Below, piece by piece: positions 51,313 through 60,942 of a DNA stretch of 64,000 bases. Positions within the stretch are counted from its first letter, which is position 1, and every line of letters starts with the position of its first letter. The position numbers and the translations under genes are program-made. The DNA is from Nocardioides rotundus (lineage in GTDB: Bacteria; Actinomycetota; Actinomycetes; Propionibacteriales; Nocardioidaceae). The DNA lies in contig NZ_CP082922.1 in assembly GCF_019931675.1 (NCBI RefSeq), forward strand, positions 1,813,001 through 1,877,000, in the 5' to 3' direction. A model generated the notes under the pieces. That model searched no databases. It was not told where the DNA came from and saw only the letters and a list, made by a program, of their open reading frames with translations.

Positions 51313-51564
51313 ATGAAGAAGATCGGATTCCTCAACTTCGGACACTGGTCGGAGGCGCCGGGCTCGCAGGTCCGCACCGCGTCCGACGCCCTGCTCCAGT
51401 CGATCGACCTCTCGGTCGCCGCGGAGGAGCTCGGCGCGGACGGGGCGTACTTCCGCGTCCACCACTTCGCCCGCCAGCTGGCCTCCCCCTTCCCGCTGCT
51501 CGCCGCCATCGGGGCGAAGACCAGCCGGATCGAGATCGGCACCGGCGTCATCGACATGCGCTAG
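51313..51564 (+). pseudogene. Luciferase-like flavin oxidoreductase, N-terminal fragment
   Basis: ATG 51313 starts MKKIGFLNFGHWSEAPGSQV, the beta-1 strand of a bacterial luciferase-like TIM barrel. The 83-residue fragment runs to IGTGVIDMR and hits TAG at 51562, inside the left att site. The missing remainder resumes in frame at 60169. Joining the two gives about 340 residues, normal for the LLM family. The gene is thus interrupted by the integrative element. The short fragment is unlikely to be active. Confidence 0.88.
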
Positions 51565-51588
51565 CGCATGTCGGAGTTATAACACTCG
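51556..51588. other. Left attachment site of the integrative element
   Basis: Core ATGCGCTA (51556-51563) corresponds to ATGTGCTA at the right end (60163-60170). The GCTA at 51560-51563 is identical in both sites and is the likely crossover zone. The following 25 bp (51564-51588) are the element-side arm and are an imperfect inverted repeat of the arm at 60144-60168, as expected for a serine-integrase attP split between two ends. Confidence 0.8.
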
Positions 51589-51600
51589 ACGACCTCCCTC

Positions 51601-53502
51601 CTACTTCCTCGTCCGGGCAGCGCGGAGACCGTTGAGGATCACTATCACCTCGGCGATCTCGTGCACCAGCACCACCGCGGCCAGCCCCAGCACGCCGAAC
51701 AGGGCCAGCGGCAACAGGGCGGTGATGATCAGCAGCGACAGGATGATGTTCTGATTGATGATGTGCCGACCGCGACGGGCGTGGTCGAACGCCCGCGGGA
51801 GGAGCCGCAGGTCGTGGCCGGTGAAGGCGACGTCGGCGGACTCGATCGCGGCGTCGGAGCCGGTCGCGCCCATCGCGATGCCGATGTCCGCGGCGGCCAG
51901 GGCGGGGGCGTCGTTGATGCCGTCGCCGATCATCGCGACCGAGCCGTGCCTGCCCAGTCCGCTGATCGCGGCCGCCTTGTCCTCCGGGCGCAGCTCGGCG
52001 CGCACGTCCTCGATCCCGGCCTGCGCGGCCAGCGCCCGGGCGGTGCGGGCGTTGTCGCCGGTGAGCATGGTCATCCCGACGCCCTGGGCGGCGAGGGTGC
52101 GGACCACCTCGGGGACTTCGGGTCGCAGCTCGTCGCGGACGCCGATCGCGGCGACCGGGACGTCGTCGCGGTGCACGATCACGACGGTCATGCCCTGCTC
52201 CTCCAGGCCGGCGACCTGGTCCTTGAGCGTCCCGGCGTCCAGCCAGCGGGGGCTGCCGACGGTGACCCGGGCCCCGTCGAGGGTGCCCTCGATGCCGTGC
52301 CCGGCCTGCTCGGTGACCTCCAGGGCGGCGGGGGCTCCGGGTGCGGCGGCGGTGATCGCGGCGGCCAGCGGGTGGGTGCTGTGCTGCTCCAGGGATGCCG
52401 CCCAGGCCAGGGCCTGCGCCTCGGTCACGCCGTCGGCGGTGAGGACGGCGGTGACGGCGGGCTCGTTGCGGGTGAGGGTGCCGGTCTTGTCGACGGCGAC
52501 GTGGCGGATCACGCCGAACCGCTCGAACACGGCACCGGACTTGATGATCACGCCGAATCTGCTCGCCGAGCCGATCGCGGCGACGACGGTCAGCGGGACG
52601 GAGATCGCCAGCGCGCACGGCGACGCGGCGACGAGCACCACGAGGGCTCGGGTGATCCACAGCTCCGGGTCGCCCAGCAGCGAGCCGATGATCGCGACGA
52701 GGGCGGCGAGGATCAGCACGCCGGGCACGAGCGGCCGGGCGATGCGGTCGGCCAGGCGGGCACGGTCGCCCTTCTCGGCCTGCGCCTGCTCCACCAGCTC
52801 CACGATCGTGGTCAGCGAGTTGTCGGTGCCCGCTGCGGTCGTCTCGACCTCCAGGGCACCGGCGGTGTTGATCGCCCCGGCCGACACCGCGTCGCCGGGC
52901 TCGACCTCCACCGGGATCGACTCCCCGGTGATCGCCGAGGTGTCCAGGCTCGACCGGCCCGTCCGGACGATCCCGTCGGTCGCGATCCGCTCACCCGGAC
53001 GCACGAGCATCAGCTGACCAACGGCCAGATCCTTCGCGGCGACCTCCACGGGCGCGCCGTCCTGCCGGATGGTCGCGGTCTCCGGGACCAGCTTGAGCAG
53101 CGCCCGCAGCCCGCCGCGGGCGCGGTCCATGGCCTTGTCCTCCAGCGCTTCGGCGATGGAGTACAGGAACGCCAGCGCCGCGGCCTCCTCGACGTAGCCG
53201 AGGATGACCGCGCCGACCGCGCTGATCGTCATCAGCAGCCCGATGCCCAGCTTGCCCGTGAACAGCTTGCGGATCGCGCCGGGCGTGAACGTCGACGCAC
53301 CCAGCAGCAGGCCGATCCAGAACGCCACCAGCGCCGGGATCTCCGCACCCGTCCATTCCAGGACCAGGCCCGTGCCGAACGCTACGCCGGAGAACACCGG
53401 GACCATGATCCCGCGGTCACGCCACCACGGACGCTCCCGCTCCTCCTCGGCCTCCTCGCCGACCCGGGTCTCCGGCTCGTCGCAGCCGCACGCCGCGCTC
53501 AC
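51601..53502 (-). CDS. P1B-type heavy-metal-translocating ATPase (CtpG/Cd-Pb exporter-like)
   Basis: Start GTG 53502 overlaps the cmtR-like stop as GTGA. The 633-residue protein lacks an HMA domain but has a Cys-containing, acidic N-terminus (SAACGCDEPE). TM segments flank the actuator (TGES), and the TM6 metal site is ASPCALAIS. Phosphorylation site is DKTGT, ATP-binding HP is in STHPLAAA, hinge is GDGINDAPAL, and TM8 has HEIAEVIVILNGLR. SPC is usual for P1B-4 ATPases (Co/Zn/Fe), while the genetic link to a CmtR-type sensor points to Cd/Pb. It exports toxic metal ions from the cytoplasm. Confidence 0.9.
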   Translation of the reverse strand: MSAACGCDEPETRVGEEAEEERERPWWRDRGIMVPVFSGVAFGTGLVLEWTGAEIPALVAFWIGLLLGASTFTPGAIRKLFTGKLGIGLLMTISAVGAVILGYVEEAAALAFLYSIAEALEDKAMDRARGGLRALLKLVPETATIRQDGAPVEVAAKDLAVGQLMLVRPGERIATDGIVRTGRSSLDTSAITGESIPVEVEPGDAVSAGAINTAGALEVETTAAGTDNSLTTIVELVEQAQAEKGDRARLADRIARPLVPGVLILAALVAIIGSLLGDPELWITRALVVLVAASPCALAISVPLTVVAAIGSASRFGVIIKSGAVFERFGVIRHVAVDKTGTLTRNEPAVTAVLTADGVTEAQALAWAASLEQHSTHPLAAAITAAAPGAPAALEVTEQAGHGIEGTLDGARVTVGSPRWLDAGTLKDQVAGLEEQGMTVVIVHRDDVPVAAIGVRDELRPEVPEVVRTLAAQGVGMTMLTGDNARTARALAAQAGIEDVRAELRPEDKAAAISGLGRHGSVAMIGDGINDAPALAAADIGIAMGATGSDAAIESADVAFTGHDLRLLPRAFDHARRGRHIINQNIILSLLIITALLPLALFGVLGLAAVVLVHEIAEVIVILNGLRAARTRK

Positions 53503-53858
53503 GCGCCCGCTCCCGTCCCACAGCAGCCCGGCACCGTGCACTCGGCGTCCACGCACGGCGCGTGCTCGTCCACGGCCAGCGTCACGTCCACCAGCGCCGT
53601 GAGCGCCGCCGCGAGGTGCGGGTCGGCGATCTCGTAGCGCGTCTGCCGACCCTCGGGCTCGGCGACTACGATCCCGCAGTCGCGAAGACAGGTCAGGTGG
53701 TTCGACACGTTGGAGCGCGTCAGCTCCAGCTCGCGCGAGAGCACGGCCGGGTAGCTCGGCCCGTCCAACAGGGTCATCAGGATCCGGGAGCGCGTCGGGT
53801 CCGCCATGGCCCGGCCGAGCCGGTTCACGACGTCGAGGCGAGAAGCAATGGTCAGCAT
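53499..53858 (-). CDS. CmtR-like ArsR/SmtB-family metal-sensing repressor
   Basis: The 119-residue winged-helix protein has ADPTRSRILMTLLDGPSY and recognition helix LTRSNVSNHLTCLRDCGIVV, whose two Cys match CmtR Cys57 and Cys61. EGRQTRYEIAD forms the wing, and the C-terminal Cys cluster HAPCVDAECTVPGCCG includes the Cys equivalent to CmtR Cys102. CmtR of Mycobacterium tuberculosis senses Cd(II) and Pb(II) and releases DNA on binding. The gene overlaps the P-ATPase gene and is preceded by a leaderless-type promoter, so autoregulation is likely. Confidence 0.92.
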   Translation of the reverse strand: MLTIASRLDVVNRLGRAMADPTRSRILMTLLDGPSYPAVLSRELELTRSNVSNHLTCLRDCGIVVAEPEGRQTRYEIADPHLAAALTALVDVTLAVDEHAPCVDAECTVPGCCGTGAGA

Positions 53859-53894
53859 GCACTGAACTATACAGCAGGCACTGACCTATTGTCA
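53859..53894 (-). promoter_or_regulatory. Leaderless promoter and operator of the cmtR-like operon
   Basis: On the minus strand a -35 TGACAA (53889-53894) is separated by 17 bp from -10 TATAGT (53866-53871). The ATG at 53858 is only 7 nt past the -10, so transcription probably begins at the start codon. Two direct repeats ACTGAACTA and ACTGACCTA (plus-strand 53861-53869 and 53880-53888) overlap the promoter and are candidates for the repressor site. Confidence 0.6.
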
Positions 53895-53947
53895 CTCTGT
53901 GGAGTTCTGCCGCACGCGCTCCGCGCGCTTGCCCTCGGGAGCTGGGG

Positions 53948-54850
53948 TCACCTCCGCCAGCGGGGCCATGTCGGCATCCCGCGGCCCCTCCACGTCTCCG
54001 CCAGGCCGACGATCCAGCGGGCGGACGCGAAGAGGGCGTAGCCGGCACTGGCGAGACCAGCGCTGACCACGAGCCAGCGCCCGATGCCGAGCCACACGCT
54101 CCCGTCCACGTCCAGCGCCCACTGAGCACCCGTGATCAGGCCCGCTACGGCCATCCAGACGCCCGCGACCAGCATCGCGAGCGGCACGAGCGCGAGGAGC
54201 ATCGCGGCGGCGGCGCTCCAGAGCTGGCGTGCCTCGACCTTCGCCGTCGCGGCGATGACCCTTTCGGCCCGCTCGTTCGCGGCGTCGAGGTTCGCCGTCA
54301 TCGTGGCCGAGGCCTCCCCGGCGACCTGTTCGACGGCCTTCTGCACGCGCTCCTCGGTGCGCTTCTCGATCCGCTGCACGGCACCGCCGACCCTGCTCAC
54401 GAGCGCCCTGCTCTCGTCGGCCTGTGCCTTGAGCGCTTCACATGCTGCGGTCGTAACTGTGTGATTCCTCTGCGCTTCGACGATCAAGCTCTGCGAGGCG
54501 CTCTTCAGCTTCTCGCCGTCGAGACTCTGCGCGAATTCGCCGAGCGTGCTCGCGATCTCGCTCTGCCTGCTCGCGATACTCGCGATCCTCTCGGACACGT
54601 CGCTGGAGGGCGAGGAGGTCGACGGCGGGGCCGTGATCCGCTCCAGCCGCCTCGTCGTCTCCTCGTCCATGACCTTCACGAACCCCGCGAGCTTCTTCTG
54701 CTGCTCGGCCAGCCGGTCGAGCCTCGCATTCTGCGCCTCGACGGCGGCGAGGATCGAGGTCAACGCCTCCATCGTCTCCGGACTGCCGAGCTGCTGCCGC
54801 TGCTCGTCCTGCGCGTTCTGCTGCTTCAATCGATCGAGCGCTGCGCTCAT
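53948..54850 (-). CDS. Coiled-coil membrane protein, MobB-like, overlapping the relaxase gene
   Basis: The 300-residue protein begins MSAALDRLKQQNAQDEQRQQ and has about 190 residues of Gln/Glu/Ala-rich coiled coil. Two TM helices follow (MLLALVPLAMLVAGVWMAVAG and WLVVSAGLASAGYALFASA) and a basic tail. Its first 413 bp lie inside the relaxase gene in another frame, like mobB within mobA in RSF1010. MobB proteins of that type stabilise the relaxase at the membrane and transfer channel. Homology is not demonstrable by eye; architecture and position support the comparison. Confidence 0.7.
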   Translation of the reverse strand: MSAALDRLKQQNAQDEQRQQLGSPETMEALTSILAAVEAQNARLDRLAEQQKKLAGFVKVMDEETTRRLERITAPPSTSSPSSDVSERIASIASRQSEIASTLGEFAQSLDGEKLKSASQSLIVEAQRNHTVTTAACEALKAQADESRALVSRVGGAVQRIEKRTEERVQKAVEQVAGEASATMTANLDAANERAERVIAATAKVEARQLWSAAAAMLLALVPLAMLVAGVWMAVAGLITGAQWALDVDGSVWLGIGRWLVVSAGLASAGYALFASARWIVGLAETWRGRGMPTWPRWRR

Positions 54851-55721
54851 GGTCCTGCTCCTTCTGCTGCTGGTGGTAGTCGAAGAACGCCTGCGCGCCC
54901 TCCGGGGTGAAGTCCGCAGAGAGGGCGCTCGTGCGCTTGCGGCGCTCGGCGCGCCCGGACTCGCCGCGGCGGTCCTCGATGTAGAGCGTCCACGTCTCCT
55001 TGCCGACGTTCTTGCCCCGCTTGCTGACGGCGGTGTGCAGGCGCATCCGCGGCACCCGCTCGTCGTCGCCGAGCCGCTGGTTCTGCTCCTCGATCACCGC
55101 TTCGAGACCGGCCTTATCCACCGCGCGGGGATCGGCCAGGGCTGCTCTCATACGGTCGCCCATCTCACGGTCGAGCCCACCCTCAGCGAAGTCCTCGCGG
55201 CGCAGCTCCCAGTCCTTCGGCGCGTGCTCCAGCCGCTTCACGACCGAGAGGCCGTGCTCGCGCATCAGCTCGTCGTTCGCCGACTGCACGCCCCGCTGGT
55301 TCCCGGCCTTGCGGTCGTGGAACGTGCGGTAGTCGCTGAGCGCCTTCCCGGTCCGGTTGTTGTGGTTGATGACCAAGATGTGGTTGTGCGGCTTGCGGCC
55401 ACGTCCATCCACATGCGTCAAGACGAGGCAGTCCGAATCCGGGTGCATCCTCTTCGCCAGCAGGTAGCCCAGATCATTCACCCGCTGCACGTCCTCCGGG
55501 CTCTTCGGGTCGAACTCCTCATCGCTGAAGCTCTGCCTGTAGTGCAGCGCCTCGACGTCGCGCTTCGTGTGCTGCGTGAGCGCGCGGGCGCGCGCCGAGA
55601 ACGCTCCCGGGCCTCCCGGCACGTCGCACGTGACCGCGACCCCGCGCTCGTCCTCCTTGCCCCGGATGTAGCGCTCCGTGTCCGCGGCGCTCGTGCTCGG
55701 GCTGTAGTGCGTGGTGCTCAT
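54438..55721 (-). CDS. MobA-type relaxase (MOB_P-like)
   Basis: The 427-residue nickase has N-terminal MSTTHYSPSTSAADTERYI with candidate catalytic Tyr. The metal-binding histidine motif is LVLTHVDGRGRKPHNHILVINH (HxD...HNH, about residue 105), followed by KALSDYRTFHDRKAGNQRG. From about residue 290 the sequence becomes a charged Arg/Glu/Ala low-complexity helix that overlaps the coiled-coil gene in another frame. It should nick oriT and pilot the strand. ATG 55721 overlaps the mobC stop by 4 bp. Confidence 0.85.
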   Translation of the reverse strand: MSTTHYSPSTSAADTERYIRGKEDERGVAVTCDVPGGPGAFSARARALTQHTKRDVEALHYRQSFSDEEFDPKSPEDVQRVNDLGYLLAKRMHPDSDCLVLTHVDGRGRKPHNHILVINHNNRTGKALSDYRTFHDRKAGNQRGVQSANDELMREHGLSVVKRLEHAPKDWELRREDFAEGGLDREMGDRMRAALADPRAVDKAGLEAVIEEQNQRLGDDERVPRMRLHTAVSKRGKNVGKETWTLYIEDRRGESGRAERRKRTSALSADFTPEGAQAFFDYHQQQKEQDHERSARSIEAAERAGRAAAAARQSGDDGGVDLDPRRRRGAECEARPAGRAAEEARGVREGHGRGDDEAAGADHGPAVDLLALQRRVREDREYREQAERDREHARRIRAESRRREAEERLAELDRRSAEESHSYDRSM

Positions 55722-56308
55722 GAGACCGTCCGATCACCGAGCAGGGCGCGGACCTCGCGCAGCAGCTCGATCAGCTCGGGCACCTCCGCCGACAGCGCCA
55801 CCGCCTCACCGGCCCGTGCACGGCGGTCCAGGTCGTTGACGTTGATCGCCAGCGGGCGCACCTGCGCGGCCAGCTCCCGGGCGTCCGCCGAGGCCTGCGC
55901 GCGCGTCTCGACCCCGAGCAGGCGTGCGGCCACGGCGGCGTCCAGCTCCTCGCTCCGAGAGGCGTGCAGGGCATCGCGCACGACGCTCCGCACCCACGTG
56001 CTCGGAGCCAGCCCGAGCCGCTTCGCACGAGTGCGCAGCGCCCCGAGCGTGGCGTCATCGAAGCGGGTATCGAGCCGCCCGCCGCTGCCACGACGACGCT
56101 TCGCGCCGCCGTGACTCTGCCGCACAACCTCCGCATCAGCCCGACCGGTGCTCACCGGGGAGTCGGCCTGCTGCTCCACCTGTACGCCAGAGTGGCAAGC
56201 AGTAGCCCCGTCGGACACATCGCTGGCGCTCGTGCCCTCCGTGGCTGCTTGCGAGGGGGCTCCGCCCCCTTCGATCCCCTGGAAGTGTCCATCGAGCTCG
56301 GTGCTCAT
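55718..56308 (-). CDS. mobC: MobC-family mobilization accessory protein
   Basis: ATG 56308 overlaps the rep stop as ATGA. The 196-residue protein has an approximately 75-residue polar N-terminus and a ribbon-helix-helix type segment (GGRLDTRFDDATLGALRTRAKRLGLAPSTWVRS). The C-terminal helical MobC domain reads LAAQVRPLAINVNDLDRRARAG and ELIELLREVRALLG. MobC proteins bind oriT and help the relaxase. It directly precedes the relaxase gene with 4-bp overlap. Confidence 0.85.
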   Translation of the reverse strand: MSTELDGHFQGIEGGGAPSQAATEGTSASDVSDGATACHSGVQVEQQADSPVSTGRADAEVVRQSHGGAKRRRGSGGRLDTRFDDATLGALRTRAKRLGLAPSTWVRSVVRDALHASRSEELDAAVAARLLGVETRAQASADARELAAQVRPLAINVNDLDRRARAGEAVALSAEVPELIELLREVRALLGDRTVS

Positions 56309-57717
56309 GCCGCACCTCCGATCAGCGCCATCGGCACGTCTGGGCTGCGCACCGCGAGACCGCCCAGCAGCTCGGCGACCGCGCCGTCCGCGTCGTGTTC
56401 CGCCGAGGTCTCGGGACCGTAGGTCAGTTCCCGCGACCCGGCGTTCTGGTGGTACGCGTTGCCGTACATGCCGGGCGTGTGCGCGGCGGCCGGAACGCTG
56501 CACTGGTGCCACTCGTAAGGCTCGATCTTCCCGATGTGCTGCACGAGGTACCGGTTGATGTCATCGGCGCGGAAGACCTTCACCACGGACGCCAGGCGAC
56601 GGATGAACTGGTCCAGCGCCTCGTCCACGTTGCCCTTCTGTCGGGCGTAGTAGAAGAACTCGACGGGTTCGATGGTGGCCGTGATGACGATGAGCCGCGG
56701 GGCCACCTCCCCCTTGTTCCTGTAGCGAGCCTTCGCCGGAGAAGCGTTGAACGGATCGAGCAGCAGCAACCAGTCGTTCGCGTCCATCGCCGAGGCCCGC
56801 AGATCGTCGAGCAGCAGCACTTCCTCCCCGCGCCAGTCATCGAGCGGGTTCCCCGTCGCGGCCCGGTAGACCTGCCACCGCACGCCGTGGGCGTTCACCG
56901 AGTCGAGCGCTGCCGTGATGAAGTCCGTGGCGAACCGCGTCTTGCCGATCCCGGCATCCCCGTGGACGAACACCACGTGCGTCGAGAACTCCCCGGCGCG
57001 GAGCTTCGCCGCCGCCCGGTACGCGCGGCGCTGGCCGTAGGCCGACAGAGCGTCGTCGATCTCCCGCTGATGCCGGGAGTAGATGTCGAACAGCTCATCG
57101 GTGAGCATGATCTGATCGCGCGTGACCTCTCCCTGGAGCACGCGCTCACGCATGTCCTCGAAATTCTCGGCGACGACCTTCTTCTTCACGTGCGCGCGAC
57201 CCTTGAGCCACGTCTCCCGGCGCTGGGCATCGATGCCGAGGTAGTCCGGCCCGCGCACCGTGGCGACCTCCGACGGCGCGTACTGGTGCTTGTCCGCGTA
57301 CTTCACGTGCGTCAGATACGACAGCATGTTGTCGAAGGCGTACCGCCCGCGACCGGGCTTCTCGACGTACTGAGGCTCGACGCCGATGCCGAACGCGAGC
57401 CGATCCAGCGGGGCGCTTTTCGCGCGGCTGGCGAACTTGATGACCGCGTGCAGGTGCTCGGGCTTCGGCTCGACCACGAGCGCCTTCTCCGTGTCGCTCC
57501 AGACCTCGCGCTCGTCCTTGTCGTGCACGATGCCGTAGGCCTCGATGACCTCGCAGCCGATGGCCTCGAGCCGCTGCACCACGTAGGCGAGGATCGTCTC
57601 GGCTCCCTGCCGGAGCAGCGCGGCACCGTTCGCGTCCTCGGCGGCCCAGGTCCAGTACGACGGATCGAGGTACTGCGTGAGCCCGATGCTCGTCGGGTTG
57701 TTCTCCTGCTTAGCCAC
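56305..57717 (-). CDS. HUH replication initiator with SF3 helicase domain (bacterial CRESS-like Rep)
   Basis: Start GTG 57717 (MAKQENNPTSIGLTQYLDP) is inferred; upstream frame to 57885 is implausible. The 470-residue protein has a Rep_2-like nuclease domain with AYGIVHDKDEREVW, HUH motif PEHLHAVIKFA (about residue 85) and catalytic-Tyr region LSYLTHVKYADKHQY (about 130). The helicase domain has Walker A VHGDAGIGKTRFA (about 255), Walker B VLLLDDLRAS and motif C LIVITATIEPVEFFYY. This nuclease-SF3 fusion is the architecture of CRESS-DNA virus Reps and of bacterial pCRESS plasmids. It probably starts rolling-circle replication of the excised element. Confidence 0.85.
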   Translation of the reverse strand: MAKQENNPTSIGLTQYLDPSYWTWAAEDANGAALLRQGAETILAYVVQRLEAIGCEVIEAYGIVHDKDEREVWSDTEKALVVEPKPEHLHAVIKFASRAKSAPLDRLAFGIGVEPQYVEKPGRGRYAFDNMLSYLTHVKYADKHQYAPSEVATVRGPDYLGIDAQRRETWLKGRAHVKKKVVAENFEDMRERVLQGEVTRDQIMLTDELFDIYSRHQREIDDALSAYGQRRAYRAAAKLRAGEFSTHVVFVHGDAGIGKTRFATDFITAALDSVNAHGVRWQVYRAATGNPLDDWRGEEVLLLDDLRASAMDANDWLLLLDPFNASPAKARYRNKGEVAPRLIVITATIEPVEFFYYARQKGNVDEALDQFIRRLASVVKVFRADDINRYLVQHIGKIEPYEWHQCSVPAAAHTPGMYGNAYHQNAGSRELTYGPETSAEHDADGAVAELLGGLAVRSPDVPMALIGGAA

Positions 57718-58045
57718 GGCGACTACCCCCACCGTGGGAGGCGCGACGACTCTCAGAGGGAGTCCGGCGCCTAAATGACCCCCTATTGACCCCCAAATGA
57801 GACCCCAAATGATCCCGCGTGGCCGCGTGACGGAGCGAGCGCAGAAACGCCTTCTGACCAGGCGTGTTGTTGCAAGGCGCGGCAATCGACAAGCCCTTGC
57901 CGCGCCCGTAGGAACGAATGAGGGTCTCAGAACTCTTGGAGTTCACGACGACGGGCATCCCGCCTTCGGCGGGTGCCAGGCCAGGCCCTCCGGGCGGGGT
58001 CAGGTCGGCGGGAGCGGTGCTGGGGTTGCGGGCGTCGGTTCGCAT
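57710..58045 (-). CDS. Small basic hypothetical protein, coupled to rep
   Basis: Start ATG 58045 shares a TGATG junction with the upstream stop; the end overlaps rep by 8 bp. The 111-residue product has a Pro/Ala-rich N-terminus (MRTDARNPSTAPADLTPPGG), then VVVNSKSSETLIRSYGRGKGLSIAAPCNNTPGQKAFLRSL and a basic Ser/Arg-rich tail. No family recognised. The repeated coupling pattern suggests it is translated. It may be DNA-binding or a replication accessory. Confidence 0.55.
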   Translation of the reverse strand: MRTDARNPSTAPADLTPPGGPGLAPAEGGMPVVVNSKSSETLIRSYGRGKGLSIAAPCNNTPGQKAFLRSLRHAATRDHLGSHLGVNRGSFRRRTPSESRRASHGGGSRRG

Positions 58046-58293
58046 CAGCGACCACCGCCCTTGCGGTAGCGCTTGATGACGGCCTGATGGGTGACGCCGA
58101 GGGCGTCGCCGATCCTGACCCAGGTCACCCCGTCGGCGCGAGCATCGGCGACGGCGATCTCGACGGCCTCCTCCAGCACGGAGCGAAGCACGCCGAGGTC
58201 GTAGAGGCGGGCCTCCGCGTCGGCGAGAGCGGGATCGCCCAGACGCCAGTGGAACGCCTCGACGTGATCGAGGGCGGCAGCATTCGCAGTCAT
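58045..58293 (-). CDS. Small HTH protein
   Basis: The 82-residue protein is helical in the N-terminal 45 residues (FHWRLGDPALADAEARLYDLGVLRSVLEEAVEIA). It ends with a HTH-like motif DGVTWVRIGDALGVTHQAVIKRYRKGGG, resembling resolvase/sigma-type HTH. ATG 58293 overlaps the upstream stop in a TGATG junction. Probable DNA-binding regulator of the rep-mob operon. Confidence 0.7.
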   Translation of the reverse strand: MTANAAALDHVEAFHWRLGDPALADAEARLYDLGVLRSVLEEAVEIAVADARADGVTWVRIGDALGVTHQAVIKRYRKGGGR

Positions 58294-58505
58294 CAGCGAC
58301 CACCGCCCATCACGGAGGCGACGGCGGCGCGCTGACGCGGGGTCAGCGGCGTGTTGGCCAGGCGCTCACCGGCACGGCGACCGGCGGCACGGGCGGCGGC
58401 GATGACGGGATCGAGCCCATCAGACTGCGGAACGGGGGTCGAGTCCTGGGCGATCCCAGGACGGTCCAGCGCGGAAGCGCGGGGAGCGTCGATAACGACA
58501 GACAT
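58293..58505 (-). CDS. Small hypothetical protein heading the rep-mob operon
   Basis: The 70-residue protein starts at ATG 58505 after GAGGTC. The pattern is MSVVIDAPRASALDRPG, then DPVIAAARAAGRRAGERLANTPLTPRQRAAVASVMGGGR. Helices suggest a small DNA- or protein-binding protein; related short proteins with TPxQRAxVA segments occur in actinobacterial plasmids, as far as I recall. It is the first gene of the minus-strand run 58505-53948. The operon promoter should lie in the 182-bp gap 58506-58687. Confidence 0.6.
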   Translation of the reverse strand: MSVVIDAPRASALDRPGIAQDSTPVPQSDGLDPVIAAARAAGRRAGERLANTPLTPRQRAAVASVMGGGR

Positions 58506-58646
58506 CGGAAGACCTCAGACATGAGTGTGCTTCCGGTTCCCCGCCACCGTAGTTGGGCTGTTTGACCGGCTACTCATCCGGGAGCAGAACCCCGCGCTTC
58601 AAAGTCGCGGCCCCGGTGGGATCTTCTTGTCTGTAACCATTCTCCC

Positions 58647-58684
58647 ATGACTCGACTCACCATTGCAATGACGAGTCGAGCCAT
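58647..58684. other. Stem-loop (11 of 12 bp) between rep operon and integrase: origin or terminator candidate
   Basis: Arm 58647-58658 (ATGACTCGACTC) pairs with 58673-58684 (GAGTCGAGCCAT) with one mismatch, around a 14-nt loop ACCATTGCAATGAC containing the palindrome ATTGCAAT. It lies just past the integrase stop and upstream of the rep operon. It could terminate int or be the Rep nick-site hairpin, since CRESS-type origins are stem-loops with the nick in the loop. No canonical nonanucleotide is present. Confidence 0.45.
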
Positions 58685-58687
58685 GAG

Positions 58688-60124
58688 TCAGTCGCGTCTC
58701 GGCTCTATCCGAATGAGATCGGGGTCGAACTTCACGTGACCAGGAACGATGGGCTCGATGGTCACCGTCACCAGTTCGTCCACGAGCATCCGGCGACGGT
58801 CCACGTCCAACTCCTTCCACTTCGACTCGACCACCTCGCGGCGCTCCGCGGTGCCGACCGGCTCGTCAACGTCCGCGAGCAGCTTCGCCGCCACCGACAC
58901 CGATCGGTCGAGCAGCTCCGCGTCGATCTCGTCGATGCGAGCCTTCACGTCGTTGATCGCCGCGGTGATCTCCAGCACGGGCTGGTGGATGTCGCGCAGC
59001 AGCGGGCTCAGCTCCTTGACGCGCTCGACCAGGGCGTTCCGCTCGGTCAGCAGCTCTTCGCGGTCCGGCCCAGCGTCTTCCTGCGGCATCACGAGGTCGT
59101 GCACGTCCGCCGAGGACAGTCGGGTGAGCACCGCCTCGGTGACCATCGCGTCGACGGGCTCGCGCTGGCGGGTGAGGTGGAACTGCTCACCGCAGCGGTA
59201 CGTCGGCTGCTTGCGGCTGTTCGTCCCCGAGACGAGCGTCGCGCCGCACTTCCCGCACAGCCCGATCGTGGACAGGAGGTACTTCGGTTGGTTGCCCTGC
59301 CTCGCCGACCTCCGCACGTTGTCCTCCAGCTTCGCCACCGCAGCCCGCCATGTCTGTTCGCTGACGATGGGCGGGAACCCCTCGCCCTGCACCGGGTACA
59401 ACTCGCCCGAGTCGTAGTGCTTGATGTAGCCAGCGTAGAGCGGATTCGCCAGCAGGTACCGCACGGCATCGACGGAGAACTCCGACCCGCGCGCGGTGAG
59501 GTGTCCGGCCTTGTTCAGGTCCTCGCGGATGCGACGGATTGACAGCGACGGCTCGCCGAGGAACGCGTCGAAGGCCCGCCGAACCGCGTTGGCCTCTTCC
59601 TCGATCAGCTCGCCCTCCCGCGTCCAGCCGAACGCCTTCCAGGTGGACGCCGGTATGCCCTCGGCACGTCGGCGCTCGTTCGACCGGATCTGACGCTCGG
59701 CCTTGCGACGTGCCTCGAACCGGGCGAGAGCGGCGAGCATCGTCGCCCGGAACTCGCCGTCCGCCGTCGAGAGGTCGATCTCGCCGTCCACCGTGACGAC
59801 CCGCAAACCGAGGTCGATCAGCGTGTTCAAGTCCTTCGTGCTGCGCAGCAAGCGGTCCATGTCCACGGCGACGACCATCGAGAACCGACCCGCCCGGGCG
59901 TCGTTCAGCATCTCGGCCCACCGAGTGCCAGCGCGGCGCTTCTTCGTCGCCGACACCGCGTTGTCGTCGTAGACCTCGACGACCTCCCAGTCCTTCGCCT
60001 CGGCCAGCGCCCTGATCTTCCGCAACTGGGTCTCGACAGTCCACCGGTCGCCCTTGCGGTCCAACGAGGCGCGGACGTACGCCGCCACCTCGTTCGTCTT
60101 CCTCAGCGATACCAGTTCGACCAT
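58688..60124 (-). CDS. int: Large serine recombinase (integrase)
   Basis: The 478-residue protein has an N-terminal resolvase domain (AAYVRASLDRKGDRWTVETQ with catalytic Ser near residue 20, VVAVDMDRLLRSTKDLNTLI, GEFRATMLAALARFEARRKAERQIR). The recombinase domain follows (FGWTREGELIEEEANAVRRAFDAFL), then a zinc-ribbon with Cys pairs GLCGKCGATLVSG and YRCGEQFH, and a C-terminal coiled coil. It sits 20 bp inside the right att arm, typical for serine integrases. It catalyses att-site recombination; excision would need a directionality factor, for which the small proteins are candidates. Confidence 0.93.
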   Translation of the reverse strand: MVELVSLRKTNEVAAYVRASLDRKGDRWTVETQLRKIRALAEAKDWEVVEVYDDNAVSATKKRRAGTRWAEMLNDARAGRFSMVVAVDMDRLLRSTKDLNTLIDLGLRVVTVDGEIDLSTADGEFRATMLAALARFEARRKAERQIRSNERRRAEGIPASTWKAFGWTREGELIEEEANAVRRAFDAFLGEPSLSIRRIREDLNKAGHLTARGSEFSVDAVRYLLANPLYAGYIKHYDSGELYPVQGEGFPPIVSEQTWRAAVAKLEDNVRRSARQGNQPKYLLSTIGLCGKCGATLVSGTNSRKQPTYRCGEQFHLTRQREPVDAMVTEAVLTRLSSADVHDLVMPQEDAGPDREELLTERNALVERVKELSPLLRDIHQPVLEITAAINDVKARIDEIDAELLDRSVSVAAKLLADVDEPVGTAERREVVESKWKELDVDRRRMLVDELVTVTIEPIVPGHVKFDPDLIRIEPRRD

Positions 60125-60143
60125 GCAACCAAGCTTACGTCAA

Positions 60144-60170
60144 CGAGTGTTGCAACCTCGATATGTGCTA
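60144..60170. other. Right attachment site of the integrative element
   Basis: The arm 60144-60168 matches the reverse complement of 51564-51588 at 19 of 25 positions. The core ATGTGCTA ends at 60170, where the oxidoreductase frame resumes (TAC GAG AAC). The integrase gene ends 20 bp inside this boundary on the minus strand. Confidence 0.8.
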
Positions 60171-60942
60171 CGAGAACCCGCTCTACATGGCCGAGGACGC
60201 GGGCGCGGCCGACCTGATCGCGGGCGGCCGGCTGCAGCTCGGCATCAGCCGTGGCTCACCGGAGCAGGTCGTCGATGGCTGGCGCTACTTCGGCTACCAG
60301 CCCGCCGAGGGCGAGGACCACGCCGCGATGGCGCGGCGGCACACCGAAGTCTTCCTGGAGGTGCTGCAGGGCAAGGGCTTCGCCGAGCCGAGCCCGCGGC
60401 CGATGTTCCCCAACCCGCCGGGCCTGCTGCGTCCCGAGCCGCACTCCCCCGGCCTCCGCGAGCGGATCTGGTGGGGTGCCGTCTCCGACGCCACCGCCAA
60501 GTGGACCGCGGAGAAGGGGATGAACCTGATGAGCTCGACGCTGAAGGCGGACGAGACCGGCGAGCCGTTCCACGTCCAGCAGCGCAAGCAGATCGAGGTC
60601 TTCCGCGACGCCTGGGCCGAGGCCGGCCACGACTTCGAGCCGCGGGTCTCGGTGAGCCGCTCGATCATGCCGATAGTCAACGAGATGGACCGCGCCTACT
60701 TCGGCCGCGAGGGCGAGAGCAGCGACCAGGTGGGCTTCATCGAGCAGAACCTCAAGGCGGTCTTCGGCCGGACCTACGCCGCGGAGCCGGACGTGCTGGT
60801 CAAGCAGCTCGCCGAGGACGAGGCGATCGCCGCGGCGGACACGCTGCTGTTGACCGTGCCGAACCAACTGGGCGTGGACTACAACGCCCACATCCTCGAG
60901 GCGGTCCTCACCGACGTCGCCCCCGCGCTCGGCTGGCGCTGA
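60163..60942 (+). pseudogene. Luciferase-like flavin oxidoreductase, C-terminal fragment
   Basis: The frame continues from the att core as MCYENPLYMAEDAGAADLIAGG, then LQLGISRGSPEQVVDGWRYFGY, DATAKWTAEKGMNLMSSTLKADE, and ends DVAPALGWR. These are barrel strands and insertion loops of LLM flavin-dependent monooxygenases. Native sequence would read MRYENP; the element changes Arg to Cys at the junction. The ATG at 60163 allows a separate start but there is no clear RBS, and without the N-terminal strands it should not fold as an enzyme. Confidence 0.88.

Follow-up and report, generated by a model that had tools for sequence, protein, structure and literature searches.

An integrative, mobilizable element shared across Actinomycetota that probably copies itself by a CRESS-virus-like Rep

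The analyzed window, a stretch of 64,000 nucleotides from Nocardioides rotundus (contig NZ_CP082922.1, positions 1,813,001 to 1,877,000 of the forward strand), contains an integrated element that splits a gene, which we take to encode an LLM-class flavin oxidoreductase. The protein joined across the junction matches one unbroken frame in 36 of the 39 other genomes of the genus, and the remaining three (G131, G200, and G694) gave weak matches. The features are as follows, in window coordinates.

51313..51561, plus strand: 5' part of the LLM gene (protein ends ...IDMR), from the uninterrupted orthologue in congeners
51562..60170, unstranded: whole integrated element, about 8.6 kb, between two TA crossover dinucleotides
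51562..51563, unstranded: TA crossover dinucleotide at the cargo end (cgacatgcgcTAgcgcatgtcgg)
51601..53523 (start approximate), minus strand: cadmium-type P1B ATPase (cargo); TIGR01512 and TIGR01525 above cut-off
53499..53858, minus strand: CmtR Cd/Pb-sensing repressor (cargo); NF047906 above cut-off
53948..54850, minus strand: coiled-coil/membrane-like protein; start uncertain, reading overlaps the relaxase
54438..55721, minus strand: MOBP relaxase; PF03432, 48.2 bits, cut-off 24.6
55718..56317, minus strand: MobC-like accessory protein (weak); NikA-like match, E 0.035, under cut-off
56305..57717, minus strand: Rep (HUH nuclease, Y134 in YLTH, plus SF3 helicase), from Pfam, profile, model, and alignment
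57770..57814, minus strand: iteron-like repeats of GGGGTCATTT type, between hairpin and rep
57875..57907, minus strand: proposed replication origin (dso); 10-bp perfect stem, loop GGGCTTGTCGA, nonamer at 57888-57896
58045..58293, minus strand: orf82, small helix-turn-helix protein; PHROG 686 HTH, E 1.4e-6
58293..58505, minus strand: orf70; codon pattern as in a true gene, frame broken in 2 of 18 copies
58506..58687, minus strand: conserved non-coding stretch of 182 bp, with a 40-bp imperfect palindrome at 58646-58685
58688..60124, minus strand: large serine recombinase (integrase); PF00239, PF07508, PHROG 95 integrase
60169..60170, unstranded: TA crossover dinucleotide at the integrase end (gatatgtgcTAcgagaac)
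60171..60942, plus strand: 3' part of the LLM gene (YENPLYM...), from the uninterrupted orthologue in congeners

A sequence-only reading of the window had placed the Rep beside a serine integrase, MobA, MobC, and metal resistance. The integrase, the MobA protein (the MOBP relaxase), and the metal resistance genes (CmtR and the cadmium-type P-type ATPase) were all recovered above cut-offs, and the MobC assignment held weakly, by its position in a rep-mobC-relaxase order as in plasmid pQA504 and by the NikA-like match below cut-off. With its own integrase and defined chromosomal attachment sites, the element has the characters of an integrative mobilizable element (IME). No T4SS families were found among the nine element proteins scanned, in which its own relaxase PF03432 was present. 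The host genome encodes three VirD4-type coupling proteins above cut-off (C1:501446-502762, 3876478-3877776, and 2041290-2042585), which are possible helpers; AAA_10 (VirB4-type) had no match in the host genome, and a full helper system is unsupported. Among the small genes, orf82 has the codon pattern of a gene and is intact in 18 of 18 copies, a profile search found no family for orf70, and the coiled-coil/membrane-like frame at 53948..54850 is disrupted in 7 of 18 copies. The palindrome at 58646-58685, just behind the integrase gene, is a candidate terminator, single-strand origin, or oriT.

The rep frame was found on the minus strand where it had been predicted, at 56305..57717, and codes for 470 aa from a GTG start at 57717. 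The GTG at 57732, in the same frame, is a second possible start, and the relative L050 has GTA at the codon equivalent to 57717. All three motifs quoted in the sequence-only reading (PEHLHAVIKF, YLTHVKYADKHQY, and GDAGIGKT) are present in the protein. Residues 58-159 match Rep_OBD (PF01719, 31.7 bits, Pfam curated cut-off 24.6), and residues 249-347 match RNA_helicase (PF00910, 35.2 bits, Pfam curated cut-off 21.5). The proposed fusion of an HUH domain to an SF3 helicase was confirmed by Pfam, profile, and structure model, for which a VIA re-alignment of Foldseek matches was used. An AAA_16 match on Rep stayed under the Pfam cut-off. In six of six aligned Reps (window, G008, Lactococcus, Staphylococcus, and two phytoplasma plasmids), H88, H90, Y134, H137, G258-K259, and D304-D305 are identical. 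Motif III carries the YLxH signature as YLTH at 134-137, with Y134 and H137 invariant. The suggested CRESS/pCRESS-like layout agrees with this motif and with the domain order and fold, which are those of CRESS virus Reps according to the model and structural matches. The kinship of Rep to pCPa and phytoplasma Reps is significant, and in the tree, built without labelled pCRESS1-3 or 9 Reps, pQA504 and Staphylococcus p4 lie on long branches. Neither PHROGs nor NCBIfam contained a family that matched Rep significantly (best E 0.29 and 0.17). Weak Rep matches were also seen in a genome of the same genus (G131, locus L009; 29%, E 1.1e-4) and at L057, L058, and L006.

Given the domain order and fold shared with CRESS viruses, the element might be an integrated CRESS-DNA virus. 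This is extremely improbable, as no capsid match was found among the nine element proteins scanned (six also against PHROGs), and mobilization genes and metal cargo are present. A viral origin was also looked for in sequence collections and rejected: with the patterns used, the viral contig collection held no Rep relative and no exact hairpin core. The phage collection gave three weak matches to Rep (E 1e-3 to 6e-3), covering the helicase part only.

It is very unlikely that Rep is an inert remnant and that the element is now purely a chromosomal insertion. The rep frame is broken in L041, L044, and L049, but it is open in the window and the remaining loci checked. Moreover, when the window is compared with 17 other copies, the rep differences (0.041, 0.034, and 0.194 at codon positions 1, 2, and 3) form a pattern of purifying selection, similar to that of the integrase in the same comparison (0.058, 0.029, and 0.193). 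We hold with good confidence that the best explanation is an integrative, mobilizable element with a bacterial pCRESS (YLxH)-type replication module. Its defined ends, integrase, and MOBP relaxase bear out the earlier interpretation as an integrative, mobilizable element with a CRESS-type replicon, and to judge from its genes, the element probably copies itself by a CRESS-virus-like Rep.

Upstream of rep lies a hairpin in which the loop GGGCTTGTCGA, 11 nt in length, is placed between the arms of a 10-bp perfect inverted repeat. The best conserved rep-upstream bin among 18 backbones is 57864-57913, with 40 of 50 positions invariant. The iteron-like region contains CCCCAAATGA twice on the plus strand, 12 bp apart, and TRF found no tandem array among these repeats. 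The motif GGCTTGTCRAT occurs once in the window against 0.01 expected; a search of the own genome with the 19-base hairpin core, allowing up to 2 mismatches, returned one match, which was exact, and the backward control also returned one.

Hairpins with the loop GGGCTTGTC are also located upstream of rep in Pisciglobus, Enterococcus, Streptococcus, pQA504, the Actinomyces loci L046 and L048, L045, and G008, and six of seven phytoplasma plasmids have GGGCTTGTC in a hairpin of 8-13 bp upstream of rep. We searched 55 upstream regions (window, L007, L008, L010-L055, and L060-L065) for the pattern GG[GT]CT[TC]GT[CT] with at least 6 paired bases. The hairpin is present in 50 of the 55, whereas none of 2,750 dinucleotide shuffles gave a match; counting the Staphylococcus variant (GGGCTCGTT) the number of regions is 51, of which the Staphylococcus row is no independent success because the pattern was widened after that hairpin had been seen, and most are close copies of one element, so that independent stems number about ten. 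Outside the 55, a 9-bp hairpin with GGTCTTGTC precedes the 28-30% Rep of L056, on the rep strand.

Stem sequences mostly differ between carriers, and the stem of G008 is the same as that of the window. Stem base pairs were counted by script, and the stems lie in different registers. In the window register, pairs altered on both sides with pairing kept number seven in L053, six in L054, and one each in L045 and L048, and broken pairs number two in L046, one (at the end) in L043, two in L044, one in L053, one in L048, and three in L054; L046 has no compensated change. The hairpin accompanies Rep together with a MOBP relaxase (window and pQA504), Mob_Pre (G008), or no annotated relaxase (phytoplasma plasmids), and with a serine integrase, a tyrosine integrase, or none. 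A stem-loop with a conserved loop, a variable stem, and iterons nearby, as expected of an origin, is present, and the hairpin is missing from 4 of the 55 regions: L011 (pCPa, after which the pCPa-like cluster is named), L065 (pRGI00478), L025 (rearranged), and L020 (181 bp only). We read the GGGCTTGTC hairpin as the double-strand origin, with the putative Rep nick site. Viral nonanucleotides are nicked after the seventh base, and by analogy the nick may fall after the seventh base of the nonamer.

Flanked by orf82 and rep on the same strand, the hairpin has a folding z-score of only -2.5 and might be a transcription terminator or a rep regulatory site, with the true origin elsewhere. We find this quite doubtful, since it is the loop rather than the stem that is conserved over three phyla, the stems change with complementarity kept, and the window hairpin has no T-run behind it. 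Another explanation is that Rep is a transfer relaxase and not a replication initiator, and that the hairpin is an oriT. In the Bacilli loci L053 and L055, a related Rep lies upstream of a tyrosine integrase (PF00589), with no relaxase in the one other ORF scanned in each, and by eye L054 has a similar layout. The accessible text of PMC5357655 classes such proteins as relaxases from their co-occurrence with integrases and mostly a coupling protein. However, a separate relaxase, of two families, stands beside Rep in the window, G008, and pQA504, while the hairpin goes with Rep, and in six phytoplasma plasmids the hairpin persists although the annotation lists no relaxase. A relaxase in place of an initiator is therefore unlikely in our judgment, and the two roles could coexist in one protein.

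If Rep is a replication initiator, as we prefer, recombination at TA between the two ends, carried out by the serine integrase, would release the element as a circle. Rep would bind the iteron-like repeats upstream of rep, the hairpin would be extruded, and Tyr134 would nick inside the GGGCTTGTC loop and stay on the 5' end, after which the SF3 domain would unwind the circle for rolling-circle copying. The MOBP relaxase and the MobC-like protein would then allow transfer via the conjugation system of another element. In the new host, the integrase would insert the element into the LLM gene, in either direction owing to the palindromic TA. Replication after transfer would help explain how one element could occur in many families of Actinomycetota.

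Scanned once with a profile built from three Reps, a collection of 84,980 species yielded 43 loci. The backbone DNA of the window element aligns in 37 of them (L013-L044, L047, and L049-L052), a lower bound because the scan rests on two short peptide patterns. Identity to the window is about 83-93% over the main stretches and 75.8% in L043, and the contigs of L014, L016, and L020 carry only part of the element. These 37 copies span 22 genera, 11 families, and 6 orders of Actinomycetota (NCBI rank). The remaining six loci (L045, L046, L048, and L053-L055) have related Reps in other settings. Elements of Tessaracoccus and Gulosibacter are 99.95% identical over 8.6 kb, and those of Janibacter and Corynebacterium 99.91% over 8.9 kb. 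Three groups have identities of 99.7-99.95%, namely Gordonia, Tessaracoccus, Gulosibacter, and Microbacterium; Janibacter, Corynebacterium, and Glutamicibacter; and Actinomyces, Arachnia, Propionibacterium, and Brevibacterium. Such near-identical copies between orders lend indirect support to excision and helper-dependent transfer. Assembly contamination is unlikely because the flanking LLM sequence differs from host to host on both sides. The window copy forms a separate branch, with rep DNA at most 93% identical to any other copy. Of the genomes sampled, 3 among 294 from the family and 4 among 396 from the phylum have any Rep match (the own genome counts in each sample), and apart from the own genome G008 alone has a close Rep. 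No free plasmid form of the element was found, the best of 25 plasmid records with a match reaching 36.9%.

With respect to the LLM halves, 18 of the 37 copies are directed as in the window and 15 are inverted. L025 and L036 (Actinomyces oris) are rearranged copies: the LLM gene next to the element is contiguous, the integrase is truncated, and the LLM 3' half is present a second time; the contigs of L014 and L016 are too short for a direction call. Both LLM halves were found in 30 of the 33 directed copies and one half in L020, L042, and L050. The cargo-end junction is TA followed by element GCGCA in 33 of 33 directed copies, and the host sequence before this TA is that of the LLM 5' half or the reverse-complemented 3' half. 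All 32 directed copies that are readable at the integrase end have TA at that junction too (L020 stops before the integrase). Identical rep genes occur in opposite directions (L022/L024; L017/L018 and L051). On the rep tree, no fewer than 11 direction changes are required when L025 and L036 are scored as inverted. TA is its own reverse complement, and a palindromic central dinucleotide abolishes the directionality of serine integrases, as known from phage integrase work. We propose that insertion occurs in both directions because the TA crossover is palindromic.

The cargo slot lies between the attachment end and the coiled-coil gene. It holds a cadmium ATPase in 21 of 38 elements (window included) and a mercuric reductase in 14 of 38. 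The latter was called in L047 by TIGR02053 above cut-off and in the others by tblastn, with only the last 90 residues present in L013. The remaining three elements are L014, which is cut off, L035, with a transporter-like ORF, and L043, with an acetyltransferase-like ORF (both assigned by eye). The merA proteins of L044 and L042 are identical to that of L047, and the Reps of L044 and L042 are 77% and 89% identical to that of the window. Identical merA with diverged Reps indicates that cargo and backbone recombine, giving mosaic copies. Separately, L039 (Brevibacterium sp. S22) is a composite in which a second, diverged relaxase/coiled-coil-like stretch and cadmium cargo adjoin the element.

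Taken together, it seems likely that the GGGCTTGTC hairpin is a common rolling-circle origin in a large part of the YLxH branch, and that the serine integrase of this promiscuous element is direction-blind through the palindromic TA. If so, the GGGCTTGTC origin would be common to integrated elements of Actinomycetota and Bacilli and to phytoplasma plasmids, and would be the bacterial counterpart of the viral nonanucleotide. It would define where Reps of a group believed to lie close to the ancestry of eukaryotic CRESS-DNA viruses make their nick, and origin recognition of these Reps would be testable in bacteria. In addition, the element would be a vehicle that appears to have been carrying resistance to cadmium and to mercury from one order of Actinomycetota to another recently, with a natural serine integrase that inserts both ways.

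The closest plasmid Rep is that of Lactococcus pQA504 (NC_017497.1; 36.9% over 81%). Similar to the window, pQA504 has the order rep-mobC-MOBP relaxase and a GGGCTTGTC hairpin upstream of rep, but it is a circular plasmid of 3,978 bp with no integrase or cargo annotated. The phytoplasma plasmids (pAYWB-II, EcOYNIM, and others) have a related Rep (hhalign probability 99.8) and share the GGGCTTGTC hairpin, pCPa being without it; they are free, most with an SSB gene, and no mobilization or integration genes are annotated. EcOYNIM (L061) has two replication proteins by annotation. In the G008 element (L008; host in the same family), Rep is 77-78% identical and the hairpin is identical to that of the window, whereas a tyrosine integrase and Mob_Pre (just above cut-off) take the place of the serine integrase and MOBP relaxase. 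A close Rep inside a different mobile element suggests that the rep module moves between element types.

For streptococcal elements we refer to PMC5357655, presumably Coluzzi et al. (2017), and PMC5704250, presumably Guedon et al. (2017). In the accessible parts of PMC5357655 (2017), streptococcal IMEs with Rel_PF01719-PF00910, regarded as putative relaxases, share both Pfam domains and the integrative, mobilizable character of the window element. They differ in having a tyrosine integrase and no second relaxase, compared with a serine integrase and a MOBP relaxase here. The review PMC5704250, in its accessible parts, likewise lists IMEs with PF01719-PF00910 in streptococci, and one canonical IME of Actinobacteria at that time. 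In the accessible main text of Kazlauskas et al. (2019; PMC6668415), nine pCRESS groups are described, mostly integrated site-specifically. Like the Rep of the window, the Reps of its YLxH supergroup (pCRESS4-8 and pCPa-like) join HUH to SF3 and carry YLxH in motif III. Outside pCRESS7 and 9, 97.5% of members are integrated site-specifically, and no viral structural proteins are encoded; both points agree with the window element. The same text describes no Actinomycetota element like this one, no two-way insertion, no metal cargo, and no origin motif.

As to origins, the available text of PMC8780604 (2021) discusses nonanucleotide binding and names no pCRESS origin, and that of PMC3154185 (2011) sought the viral nonanucleotide in one phytoplasma plasmid and reported only a variant. 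Searched with origin terms, the main texts of PMC6668415 and PMC8780604 give, in their accessible parts, no pCRESS origin motif. Our literature search found no rolling-circle plasmid origin of GGGCTTGTC type, the matches being on unrelated subjects by title or abstract, and no both-way insertion at TA in an LLM gene. It also found no published description of the Actinomycetota element; the search covered few subscription papers, and a description may exist elsewhere. As far as the literature searched goes, the element itself, its reach across orders, the two-way insertion, the cargo slot, and the GGGCTTGTC hairpin are new here. As a category, the element is known, from the integrated pCRESS plasmids (2019) and the streptococcal PF01719-PF00910 IMEs (2017).
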